DNA of 42,659 nucleotides from positions 1 through 42,659 of the forward strand of contig CAMZKT010000070.1 of the NCBI GenBank assembly GCA_947311435.1, given 5' to 3'. The notes under the pieces are model-generated. The model ran no database searches. It worked only from the letters and a program-made list of their open reading frames with translations, and was not told the origin of the DNA. The translations under genes were made by a program, and so were the position numbers. The stretch is from an uncultured Desulfocapsa sp. (GTDB lineage: Bacteria; Desulfobacterota; Desulfobulbia; Desulfobulbales; Desulfocapsaceae). Of this stretch, positions 13,566 to 29,287 are shown piece by piece (position 1 is the first letter of the stretch; every line of letters begins with the position of its first letter).

Positions 13566-13794
13566 GATCTGGATGTTTGTGTTGTGAAATAATTAATGCC
13601 CCAGGGAGCTGATTTCAAGACTCTGTGACTGTACGCCGCTCACGGAAAAGTGTCGTATCCTGTGAGTGGATACACTCTAACACAAATAGTTTTTGGGGAC
13701 ATAAAAAAATGGAATGGGTCAAAGATGTAATATTTAGGGAAAATAGGTGCGTCCTGTAATTGTAACGGATGCCCTGAGTGAACTTTTTAAGAGG

Positions 13795-13948
13795 GGGGGC
13801 AATACAAAAAAGTAACAATGCTGAGTCCGCCATGCTCCGATGAGTTCATGTGCTACGCTTACCTGTTCGACATTAGAAATTCAAATTACATCGTTAAGTC
13901 ACCACATAACATGCTTTCTCGATTTATCACTTTATTGTATTGCACCCT
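13795..13948 (-). mobile_element. MITE, short form (about 154 bp), with 9-bp target duplication
   Basis: The element begins GGGGGGCAATACAA and ends TTGTATTGCACCC, giving terminal inverted repeats of about 13 bp that stay recognisable to about 21 bp. It is flanked by direct repeats TTTTAAGAG at 13786-13794 and 13949-13957, a 9-bp target-site duplication (one extra G at the left junction blurs the edge). It is related in inverted orientation to both ends of the longer element at 26587-26930 and lacks that element's central ~190 bp. No ORF. It lies between the divergent surA-like and tlpA-like genes. Confidence 0.88.
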
Positions 13949-13973
13949 TTTAAGAGTTAACCTGTAAAAGGGA

Positions 13974-15997: not shown

Positions 15998-16040
15998 TAA
16001 TCAAAGTGGGACAGGACGCTTTTATACACATTTCCTTAGA

Positions 16041-16168
16041 TGATGACGTCGTAAAAACTATTCACCTGCTTCGTTACTGTATTTTTTGTTTAATCGAGAC
16101 GTGCCCTAGTACTCTGAAATCAAAAAGAAAATACGCGCCTCGCATCTGAAGTTTTTTTACTTACCATC
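16041..16168 (+). repeat. Dispersed intergenic repeat, copy 2 (complete, about 128 bp)
   Basis: Bases 16041-16139 are the exact reverse complement of 1-99. The full unit seems bounded by imperfect inverted termini: GATGACGTCGTAAAAACT at the left and AGTTTTTTTACTTACCATC (16150-16168) at the right. It is noncoding and sits between uppP and the methyltransferase gene, in the intergenic position typical of REP-like elements. Confidence 0.88.
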
Positions 16169-26363: not shown

Positions 26364-26439
26364 TGGTGGGCCGTCGGGGAGTCGAACCCCGGACCTGCTG
26401 ATTAAGAGTCAGATGCTCTACCAATTGAGCTAACGGCCC
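26364..26439 (-). tRNA. tRNA-Lys(CUU)
   Basis: 76 nt on the minus strand. Acceptor GGGCCGT pairs with ACGGCCC; D arm AGCTCAATTGGTAGAGC; anticodon loop CTCTTAA with anticodon CUU (lysine); T arm GGGGTTCGACTCCCC. Discriminator A and the CCA end are encoded. It stands alone with its own promoter; downstream sequence has an ACAATC/GATTGT hairpin (26341-26356) without a T-tract. Confidence 0.97.
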
Positions 26440-26500: not shown

Positions 26501-26586
26501 GCATGGTACGGGGTGCTAGGAAAATACATTCCCTTAGATCTTCGTTTGGATACCACGGAAAATTATTGTTTGAATGAGTTACTTGG

Positions 26587-26930
26587 GGGTGCAATACAAT
26601 AGAGTGCTAAATCGAGAAAGCATGTTATGTATTGATTTAACAATGTAATTTGAATTTCAAATGTTGAACAGGTAAGCGTGGACTCCGAGGAATATCGAAT
26701 GAAGAAGGAAAATAAAAAATTTGAACCGGAAGATTGGTTAATTAAGTTTGCGGTATGAATTGCTCAAAAGGTGTTTTTTAATGAAAACAGCCTGTTGACA
26801 TCTGATTTTTTGGCCAATCTACAAGTTTCCAGGGAGAAAACTTCGTAATTCGATATTCGACATTCTACGTAGCACGTTAATTCATCAGAGCATGGCGGAT
26901 TCAGCATTGTTTCTGTTTTGTATTGCACCC
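26587..26930 (+). mobile_element. MITE, long form (344 bp), with perfect 9-bp target duplication
   Basis: Starts GGGTGCAATACAA and ends TTGTATTGCACCC, perfect 13-bp terminal inverted repeats. Direct repeats GTTACTTGG at 26578-26586 and 26931-26939 form a 9-bp target duplication. The left about 95 bp and right about 60 bp match the short element at 13795-13948 in inverted orientation (close to 90 % by eye); a central block of about 190 bp is absent there. That block contains the start of a decayed small ORF. No transposase gene, so movement must have been driven in trans. Confidence 0.92.
26699..26758 (+). pseudogene. Remnant of a four-helix-bundle (23S rRNA intervening-sequence type) ORF inside the MITE
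   Basis: An ATG at 26699 with GAGGAA about 8 nt upstream encodes 19 residues, MKKENKKFEPEDWLIKFAV, then TGA. The start EDWLIKFAV-stop-I resembles the N-terminus of bacterial four-helix-bundle proteins (DxLIxFAVRI), where the TGA would replace the Arg codon CGA. The frame then runs 31 more codons to TAA without obvious family similarity, so much of the gene seems deleted. The resemblance is from memory and short; treat as tentative. Confidence 0.4.
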
Positions 26931-26954
26931 GTTACTTGGGCATAGGGACAAGAG

Positions 26955-27010: not shown

Positions 27011-29287
27011 CTATCTATAATAAAGATTATGGCTCCCCATGGTCATCAGGGATTTGTGCAGATTACGGCGGAAATCCCGACGATCCCATATTCCTTGTAT
27101 ATGCCCGCGTTTGAGTGCATTTCGCGCAGAATGATAATCTGGTGGGATCGTAGTTCCTGTGGTTTCCCTGATTACACGGGGACCGGCAAAGCCTACCCGA
27201 CTGGAGCGGATGGCAAACTGATAAGGAGAACAACCGAGGAAGCTAGCAACCGGCCCTGCGTATGAATTGTTGTCATAAACAACTATGTAAAGGCCGCCAG
27301 CATCAATATACTCACGGACTGCCATGGTGCATTTGGGCATCTGAACGACTCCAAGCGTACCCTCCTGGATGCGGATACCGCCGGTGGTGTGTACATAGGA
27401 GAGCAGTGGGCGTTTCTTTCGTGTCGCAAGCTCACAAGCCTGAACGAACTTCTCTCCCTCTGCAGATCCCACTGTTCCGCTTCGAAAGTCACGGTACAGC
27501 ATGGAAACAACAATCTTGATATCCATTACTTTTGCAGTAAAGGTGAGGTTTCCGGAGCTGCGACCAGTATTCTTCTTACAACTGTTGAGGCGAGCATTCA
27601 AACCTGTATATTTTAGAGGATTCCCGGAAGTTATGTCAGTTGCAAAGAAAAAGATGGAATTCGGGTCAAAGATGTTGTGTAAATACCACTGATACTCCAT
27701 GGGGAAATGGTGTCCGCAAGTTTCGCAGACACCGCTAAATTCACCAAAGAGGTCGGGAACCCAAAGATCTTTACAGCCACTTTTCTGAGTGTTGGGACAG
27801 GTAAGAGTTCGATCCTCATTGGCGCGGGGACTTGTATAGATGTCAACCAGATTAAGCGGATCTTGAGTGGGCGTTGGAAGCGTCGGAGCAATTGTTTTAC
27901 TGTGTGTTATGCGTAGTGGGGGGGTGTTTTTTGCACTGCCCTTTTCAAAAAATGCCTTTAATGTGTTGAGTGGGCTGGTGATACGTTGCATCACCACGGA
28001 CCCTTCTCCAGACATATCTCTAACGACTTTTTTGAGGTATTTCTGTGAGTTCTTCACCACATCGTAGCGTAGGTTGTAGTAGATCTTCTCGCTTTTCTCT
28101 TGAAATTGTTTGAAAAATGTTTCGGCGGGATCGGGGTGTCCACCAAAGCCAAGCATGGCCATGTCACGATATTTTTTTGAACGGATGTTGAGCAGTCTTC
28201 TTTGTTCTTCCAGAGTGAGATCCCAGGGAATATCAATGGCGAGGTCTTTGCGTTCCTCTTTTTTCTTTCGCCTTCTATTTTCCCAGTCGCGTAAAGCCTT
28301 GAAACTCTTGGCACTGAGTACAACCTTGTCAGTGGCACGAGTGATTTCTGAGCGAATTTGGTTAAAAAACGCGAAGTCATCGTGTCGTGCACCGAGCTGC
28401 GGTTCTTTAACAATGGCATCAATGGTTCCAAGACTACGGTTATCAACAGCAGTAAGCTTCAGCCGTTCGGCACATACTTCCACCAGCTCTTTTGGTACTT
28501 TTTCACCTTCGGGGATTTTTCCTTCAATGGCAGCAGCACCTTCCGGAGATATTACCGAATAGTAACCGTGAGAACACATAAGACGGAAATCAGACAAACC
28601 AATAGCTTCGGCTCCACCAGATCCTCCTTCGGAGATGAGAGATACCATGGGAACCCGCAGTTTAGACATGGCGTAAATATTTCTGGCAATCTGCTGTGCA
28701 GCTCCGGGATACTCTTCGACGGGGAAGGAGCCTGGAGTAAAAATATAAAAATGGATGGGAATGCCTTCGGTTTCAGCAACCTTCATATAGCGAAGAGCTT
28801 TCTCGTTTCCTTCAGGTTTACAGGAACCTCCGTTACGGAACTCCTCCCCATGCCCGGTCTCCTGCCCGATAACCATAACAGTGGCAGTGTATGGTTTGTT
28901 TTTTATTCGTCGGACAATAGTTGCTTTTGCACAGACCATGGCAGGATCAATATTAGCTTCATCCTGCCCGCCAAGCTCGGTGTAATCTTCGTACACATTT
29001 TCCAAAATGTCTTTGAGGCTGAACCGTTCAACGGTACGAACAATGCGGACACGCTCCATGGGAGTCAACTGCTCCTCGGCACGTTCTTCCAGGAAACTAA
29101 TTGACTCGTCCAGCTTGCGTATTTCGGTCTGGAATTGTTCTTCGTGATATTCGTATGGGTTTTGTTTAAGTTCTGCGCAGGTCTTCTGGAAGTCAAAGAG
29201 ATTTCCCCAATTGGTGAAATCTTTAATTTGAATAAGGTAGTTGATGCGCTCTTCTATTTTCTGGAGAGCTTTAAGTAGTTCGTTCAT
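27011..29287 (-). CDS. Fused acetyl-CoA carboxylase carboxyltransferase, alpha-beta order (AccA-AccD)
   Basis: 758 residues, about the sum of AccA and AccD. Residues 1-330 are AccA-like: N-terminal helical region, PMERVRIVRTVER, GHGEEFRNGGSCKPEG, EGGSGGAEAIG (220-230) and ISPEGAAAI. A charged linker (about 335-480) leads to an AccD-like part with a four-cysteine zinc ribbon (Cys497, Cys505, Cys521, Cys524) and TTGGIRIQEGTLGVVQMPK in place of the usual SGGARMQEG. Separate accA and accD are the bacterial norm; propionyl-CoA-type fusions put beta first. It transfers CO2 from carboxybiotin to acetyl-CoA. The biotin carboxylase gene is 152 bp upstream on the same strand; no biotinyl domain is present in either. 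The substrate could also be another acyl-CoA. Confidence 0.88.
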   Translation of the reverse strand: MNELLKALQKIEERINYLIQIKDFTNWGNLFDFQKTCAELKQNPYEYHEEQFQTEIRKLDESISFLEERAEEQLTPMERVRIVRTVERFSLKDILENVYEDYTELGGQDEANIDPAMVCAKATIVRRIKNKPYTATVMVIGQETGHGEEFRNGGSCKPEGNEKALRYMKVAETEGIPIHFYIFTPGSFPVEEYPGAAQQIARNIYAMSKLRVPMVSLISEGGSGGAEAIGLSDFRLMCSHGYYSVISPEGAAAIEGKIPEGEKVPKELVEVCAERLKLTAVDNRSLGTIDAIVKEPQLGARHDDFAFFNQIRSEITRATDKVVLSAKSFKALRDWENRRRKKKEERKDLAIDIPWDLTLEEQRRLLNIRSKKYRDMAMLGFGGHPDPAETFFKQFQEKSEKIYYNLRYDVVKNSQKYLKKVVRDMSGEGSVVMQRITSPLNTLKAFFEKGSAKNTPPLRITHSKTIAPTLPTPTQDPLNLVDIYTSPRANEDRTLTCPNTQKSGCKDLWVPDLFGEFSGVCETCGHHFPMEYQWYLHNIFDPNSIFFFATDITSGNPLKYTGLNARLNSCKKNTGRSSGNLTFTAKVMDIKIVVSMLYRDFRSGTVGSAEGEKFVQACELATRKKRPLLSYVHTTGGIRIQEGTLGVVQMPKCTMAVREYIDAGGLYIVVYDNNSYAGPVASFLGCSPYQFAIRSSRVGFAGPRVIRETTGTTIPPDYHSARNALKRGHIQGIWDRRDFRRNLHKSLMTMGSHNLYYR

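Follow-up and report, generated by a model that had tools for sequence, protein, structure and literature searches.

What is the 344-bp repeat at 26587-26930 of this window, and what did its core once encode? By the window we mean the whole stretch of 42,659 nt that was analysed, contig C70 of an uncultured Desulfocapsa sp. genome (2.45 Mb in 134 contigs, 89% complete). A sequence-only reading had described the repeat as the longer of two forms of an active or recently active MITE family. We conclude that it is very probably a dead, non-autonomous remnant of a mobile cassette in which a gene of the four-helix-bundle type, familiar mainly from unexplained insertions into bacterial rRNA, was carried between ISKra4-type ends. 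The core, which the earlier reading overlooked as a remnant of that cassette, would mean that the long form derives from a gene-carrying unit and not directly from an insertion sequence (IS).

The parent unit would have been about 557 bp long. It would have begun with an ISKra4-type end, a short arm and an array of TTCGATATTCG micro-repeats, followed by a gene of the TIGR02436, or 23S rRNA intervening sequence protein (IVP), family; after the gene would have come a micro-repeat array in inverted orientation, and a further short arm would have led to the second end. An ISKra4-related, Mutator-like transposase, supplied by an IS elsewhere in the cell, may have recognised the ends of about 20 bp and inserted the unit with a duplication of 8-9 bp. 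Repeated internal deletions would then have removed most of the gene, giving the long form, and later the core, giving the short form. The four-helix-bundle gene may have been mainly a passenger.

The element and its copies in the genome

The perfect inverted termini and the 9-bp duplication described earlier are real: the terminal inverted repeats (TIRs) are identical over 13 bp, and GTTACTTGG stands on both sides (Table 1). The inverted ends are not a product of chance. In the window's genome there are 9 exact matches to the 13-mer, against 0 for the reversed control, and 15 against 1 when one mismatch is allowed. With its length of 344 bp, a 13-bp TIR, a 9-bp duplication, no transposase inside it and 10 places in the genome, the element has the make-up of a MITE. 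Its neighbours are a tRNA-Lys gene (26364-26439, minus strand) and a 758-aa ORF (27011-29287, minus strand); it is thus not inside rRNA, and the tRNA alone reached the Rfam gathering score in the window. As RNA the element folds strongly (z -4.4), partly because of its inverted ends.

Table 1. Features of the long element and the short copy, in window coordinates.
Feature	Position	Strand	Remark
Left target-site duplication GTTACTTGG	26578..26586	.	
Left terminal inverted repeat GGGTGCAATACAA	26587..26599	+	matches ISKra4-related IS ends
Outer left arm	26600..26649	+	L142, a four-helix-bundle element of 556 bp, aligns with the inner part at an equal offset
Left micro-repeat flank of the former gene cassette, GAATTTCAAATGTTGAAC...GAATATCGA	26650..26698	+	
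17-bp module GGTAAGCGTGGACTCCG inside the left flank	26671..26687	+	missing from the C53, C12 and C97 copies
Remnant 5' end of four-helix-bundle (23S rRNA IVP) ORF, MKKENKKFEPEDWLIKFAV then stop	26699..26758	+	family via intact relatives
Remaining core, 90 bp past the remnant's stop	26759..26848	+	
Right micro-repeat flank TTCGATATTCGACATTC	26849..26865	+	
Outer right arm	26866..26917	+	
Right terminal inverted repeat	26918..26930	-	
Right target-site duplication GTTACTTGG	26931..26939	.	
Duplication TTTTAAGAG of the short copy	13785..13793	.	
Short copy, 154 bp, internal deletion derivative	13794..13947	-	orientation opposite to the long copy
Duplication TTTTAAGAG of the short copy	13948..13956	.	

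Both ends of the long element resemble those of the short copy in inverted orientation, as had been noted (93 nt at 91% and 63 nt at 87%), and the extra core of about 190 bp is borne out by the two lengths, 344 against 154 bp. A separate and equally perfect 9-bp duplication flanks the short copy. Because its left end is degenerate (GGGGGGCAATACAA), its two ends make no perfect pair. When the element was used as a query against its own genome, 13 matches were returned at 10 distinct places, seven of them two-ended and three partial copies, and the expectation of a wider MITE family was correct. Three copies (the two of the window and the one at C102:18433) are flanked by a perfect 9-bp duplication and those on C96 and C12 by a perfect 8-bp one, whereas for the copies on C97 and at C102:8363 the match is 7 of 9 positions; five of the seven two-ended copies therefore keep a perfect duplication of 8-9 bp. 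Eight of the 10 places, the two shortest partial copies being excluded, were aligned; the copies are 84-92% identical over shared columns, and a near-identical pair is absent.

Alignment of the copies was the earlier reading's way of asking whether deletion junctions are shared or independent. The internal gaps of C12, C97, the short window copy and the two C102 copies (C102a and C102b) all differ, and the deletions therefore look independent. From the left flank of the core the short copy retains some 25 bp, among them part of the 17-bp module that is otherwise common only to the long copy and C96, and its breakpoint lies at a CGT/CGTAG micro-homology. Because it holds the left flank and the partial module, the short copy is a deletion derivative of the subgroup formed by the long copy and C96, the kind of origin that had been proposed for it, and not an empty precursor. 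The same two features rule out a nested repeat inserted into a short MITE, with the short copy as the empty site.

Two further observations deserve a record. At L005 (G000:C53:38774-38930) a copy of the element ends in the middle of the core. The next six bases, CGAACT, are identical to those just before its left end, as though the right part had been deleted as far as the duplication. An inverted repeat of 103 nt (99%) lies at 1-103 and 16037-16139 of the window, of the type GTCGTAAAAA...TTTTTTTACTTACCATC; the contig begins inside one copy, and by eye the repeat looks like one in G016 (L039).

The core and its gene-carrying relatives

The short ORF in the core starts at 26699, with TTCGATATTCG-like micro-repeats before and after it. 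The same arrangement surrounds an intact gene of the TIGR02436 / PF05635 family, the four-helix-bundle or 23S rRNA intervening sequence protein family, at locus L030 of the relative G014. The copy on C53 aligns with the gene-carrying element L142 from 48 to 151 in both (104 bp), running from the arm through the micro-repeat flank into the ORF, with a score of 84; the best of 300 shuffles keeping dinucleotides reached 30. Against L142 the same control gave best shuffles of 34 for the long window copy (score 52), 27 for the short copy (51), 32 for C96 (48), 30 for C12 (47) and 34 for C97 (39). Against L198, a second gene-carrying element, C12 scored 40 and C97 scored 36, with a best shuffle of 33 in each case, and with both references these two copies surpass their shuffles by a smaller margin. 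The alignments with L142 make a gene-carrying cassette the most likely ancestor of the window's family.

Apart from the end, the right arms of the window's family have little in common with that of L198. The motif TCGAACARGGAATNTCGAA, allowing up to 3 mismatches, occurs at 4 places in the window's genome against 5 for the reversed control; the exact and two-mismatch places are inside element copies, and both three-mismatch places are outside. The window remnant alone, in a query typed one residue off, had no Pfam match above the cut-off, and PF05635 found nothing above the cut-off in the window's genome. The gene assignment of the remnant rests on comparison with intact relatives.

A candidate four-helix-bundle gene in the window's genome, the lone match below the cut-off, was rejected as it scores better as bAvd. 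A bAvd protein (PF22296, 52.2 bits) is encoded at L076 (G000:C104:18103-21408), together with, as judged by eye, a reverse-transcriptase-like ORF with YVDD and a variable-looking C-terminal ORF. This combination suggests a diversity-generating retroelement in the window's genome; a direct repeat of at least 40 bp was not found within the L076 stretch. The 17-bp module is itself part of a dispersed short repeat of about 25 bp, CAGGTAAGCGTAGACTCCGAGGA, that is found in several families of the order, with and without surrounding TTCGA micro-repeats (window 26671-26687; L031, L035, L039, L042, L047, L055), and that some copies of the element have within their left flank.

The extended end sequence was scanned over 84,980 species genomes and returned 84 stretches, 80 of which were examined as loci (L122-L201), mostly from Deltaproteobacteria or organisms with Desulfo- names. 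Four-helix-bundle homology (E up to 1e-3) lay in or beside the TIR element at 14 of the 80 loci; L141, where the homology is outside the TIR element, is left out of this count. Two elements of 557 bp are intact. L198 (Desulfobulbaceae S145_10) has a perfect 9-bp duplication, CTTTCCACC, and an ORF that scores 83.6 bits with TIGR02436 (cut-off 24) and 57.4 with Pfam (cut-off 33.8); as RNA it folds strongly (z -4.8), again partly because of the inverted ends. L236, from the Ca. Desulfaltia genome that also holds L123, has an intact 126-aa frame, a perfect 9-bp duplication, AGCATTTAC, and ends with 2 and 1 mismatches. L142 (Desulfobulbaceae S143_11), of 556 bp, has one stop and no exact duplication.

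Two-ended TIR elements of 60-700 bp number 30 in the 80 loci, with only identical sequences merged beforehand. Exact duplications of at least 8 bp flank 14 of them and are absent from 16; random placements in related loci gave such a duplication in 4 of 6,000 cases. Micro-repeats stand inside 23 of the 30 and are missing from 7, with 82 motifs in 9,335 bp inside elements against 1 in 32,219 bp of flank. Three loci of one genome (L131, L155 and L189) have common flanks, as would be expected of a single insertion within a larger repeat; counted once, they bring the figures to 14 of 28 for duplications and 21 of 28 for micro-repeats.

Four cassettes in S145_10 are 94-98% identical and have four different flanks; because contigs stop, three of the four are visible from one end only. 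Two of the four, L150 and L154, have in common an inner insertion of about 155 bp that interrupts the four-helix-bundle gene; since their flanks differ, it is probable that the unit moved together with its cargo. Several of the S145_10 and S143_11 copies contain stops. Between L198 and L236 dN/dS is about 0.06 (pS 0.72, pN 0.14, with dS near saturation); the S143/S145 copies, with few changes among them, give 0.29-0.38. Judged by these sequence comparisons, the cassette's gene is apparently under purifying selection between lineages.

Four-helix-bundle cassettes beyond transposon ends

Four-helix-bundle genes above the Pfam cut-off are present in 77 of the 144 relatives. Borders were compared at 77 loci, including the TIR loci L198, L142, L153 and L150, and among the 73 with enough flank, which represent highest-scoring matches and not a random sample, 53 have flanks that are inverted copies to a degree that none of 100 shuffles reached; for other ORFs at these loci the figure is 4 of 69. 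The micro-repeat unit varies by locus in four-helix-bundle genes across the order (L088-L117, L206-L265). Close relatives of the cassette gene at L206-L209 have the same kind of flanks, with no TIRs in the 200-250 bp on each side. As RNA, the TIR-free cassette at L030 folds so that its flanks pair into a single long stem enclosing the gene (z -5.5).

It is possible, at somewhat less than an even chance, that a cassette bounded by inverted micro-repeats is mobile by itself and that ISKra4-type MITEs acquired it on more than one occasion, so that their ends would be just one of its vehicles. The frequent inverted borders, the TIR-free relatives and the long stem of L030 all speak for this, as does a quick tree of 47 proteins in which the TIR-borne ones need two changes and L236 groups with the TIR-free L208 (support 87 by the quick method). 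Two changes allow either two captures or one capture and one loss, and the starred branches of the tree force just one change, so that a single capture followed by TIR loss also fits. Self-mobility is compatible with, rather than opposed to, descent of the window's element from a cassette borne on ISKra4-type ends.

The ISKra4-related transposase and known systems

The ends of the element lead to a transposase. The exact 13-mer is present in 12 of the 144 genomes, the window's own included, at 29 places against 3 for the reversed control. On contig C66 of G004, a genome of the same genus, it lies 17 nt past the last codon of a 468-aa transposase with a DruA-family ORF (PF14236) beside it. The protein matches the NCBIfam ISKra4 model with E 1.5e-33 and 116.6 bits, under the equivalog cut-off of 205 bits, and for this reason we call it ISKra4-related. 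A related transposase is found in 4 of the 144 genomes (E up to 1e-20) and in 12 of 26 genomes picked for carrying the end sequence (E up to 1e-6). The exact 13-mer follows after 17 nt at 9 of 9 distinct places where the transposase match reaches residue 468, two of these places coming from the 144 relatives and seven from genomes chosen for carrying the end sequence. Remoter transposases in G028 and G145, 35-41% identical over matches that stop short of residue 468, are accompanied by an end that is akin to the 13-mer yet distinct from it, GGGTGCATTCCCA.

L266 is a complete IS that spans 2,438 bp, has both ends and encodes DruA and the transposase; the ends of the IS and of the window element agree over about 20 bp. 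In G004 the IS is found together with a MITE of 362 bp that is flanked by a perfect 9-bp duplication, AGTGTTTCC. A transposase with matching ends, which the sequence-only reading had proposed to look for, is therefore present in the genus; a search of the window's own genome, which is 89% complete, gave no hit with E up to 1. Repeats are often missing from MAGs. Target duplications were sought at two full IS copies and were absent from both. With no transposase found in the window's genome and no duplication at either full IS, movement of the cassette in trans by the transposase of an ISKra4-related IS is something that we infer.

In the ISKra4-related IS the DruA-family ORF stands ahead of the transposase, and a second DruA-like ORF lies a few kb off on the same contig (L077 1442-3872; L266 294-2731; L158 6025-6900). 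In G093, from another family of the order, MITE-like sequences have the same 13-bp ends with and without a TTCGA cassette remnant (L057, L071, L069, L073).

An ordinary MITE, formed by internal deletion of an ISKra4-related IS and with leftover or random DNA as its core, would have the same ends. The agreement with the IS over about 20 bp, the internal deletions that are clearly common in the window's family and the remnant's failure to match Pfam above the cut-off by itself are all in keeping with such an origin. We nevertheless consider it very unlikely, and it is largely refuted by the alignment of the core with a gene-carrying element at the same offset (84, best shuffle 30). The transposase query went unmatched in the window's genome, and the cassette's micro-repeats stand in 23 of the 30 related two-ended elements. 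Searches of the 80 TIR loci with the transposase and DruA queries matched at L125, L158 and L200 only, in no case within a short two-ended element. Current or recent activity of the family in the window's organism, which had been suggested earlier, is most unlikely in spite of the perfect duplications in five of seven two-ended copies, given identities of 84-92%, the absence of a near-identical pair and of any transposase found in this genome, and better support for activity in S145_10.

Several known systems resemble the remnant of a gene-carrying cassette that we favour here. A mobile insertion cassette (MIC) is a gene between IS-type ends without a transposase. L198 and L236 are alike in having an intact gene between IS-type ends with a duplication, and the window copy is a gutted derivative of such a unit; they differ from MICs in a four-helix-bundle passenger with its own inverted micro-repeat borders and in the ISKra4-like ends. 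Pack-MULEs likewise carry gene sequence non-autonomously between Mutator-superfamily ends. The elements described here differ in being bacterial and in carrying one recurrent type of gene, apparently under purifying selection between lineages; TIR-free close relatives of the cassette gene exist, and the tree gives no direction of capture.

According to the passages of PMC3942029 drawn on here, elements of the Mutator-like superfamily have inverted repeats 18-39 bp long with C at the terminus and produce duplications of 8 or 9 bp, and four ISKra4 elements contain extra genes. The likeness to the ISKra4 family, or p-MULT 4, of those passages lies in a related transposase beside the same ends, duplications of 8-9 bp, terminal G/C and the presence of extra genes in some elements. 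In contrast, the window element has no transposase, the linked transposase falls below the NCBIfam cut-off, and the IS has a DruA-family ORF. Insertion upstream of promoters, reported for part of the ISKra4 group, was not seen: there is no peak at 15-17 nt upstream among 116 distinct junctions (121 before near-duplicates were dropped), with both ends pooled and orientation unresolved.

The 23S rRNA intervening sequences with an S23p ORF, as treated in the part of PMC4990558 cited here, have the same protein family and complementary borders able to close a stem; the elements here differ from them in being intergenic, on transposon ends with target duplications. The origin and movement of the rRNA intervening sequences and of their S23/four-helix-bundle genes were unsettled in 2016, when that source named two hypotheses, a remnant of transposition and an element mobile by itself. 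Among the matches listed, titles and abstract lines of open-licence PMC papers contained no report of four-helix-bundle cassettes with inverted micro-repeats or ISKra4 ends, which is weak evidence of novelty. It is tempting, if rather doubtful, to go further and to suppose that four-helix-bundle genes with inverted micro-repeat borders are widespread, unrecognised mobile cassettes, that the rRNA intervening sequences are copies that landed in rRNA, that the protein or the hairpin borders act in mobility, and that such cassettes have come to lie repeatedly inside ISKra4-type ends here.

Ancestry in a gene-carrying cassette would account for the TTCGATATTCG repeats that most related MITEs in this analysis contain. 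The S23/four-helix-bundle gene family is found intact between transposon ends with target duplications, which gives it a physical vehicle and provides a testable system, and the several copies of 94-98% identity at different sites of one genome add to the case for that vehicle. The cassette is one concrete route by which four-helix-bundle genes may spread.
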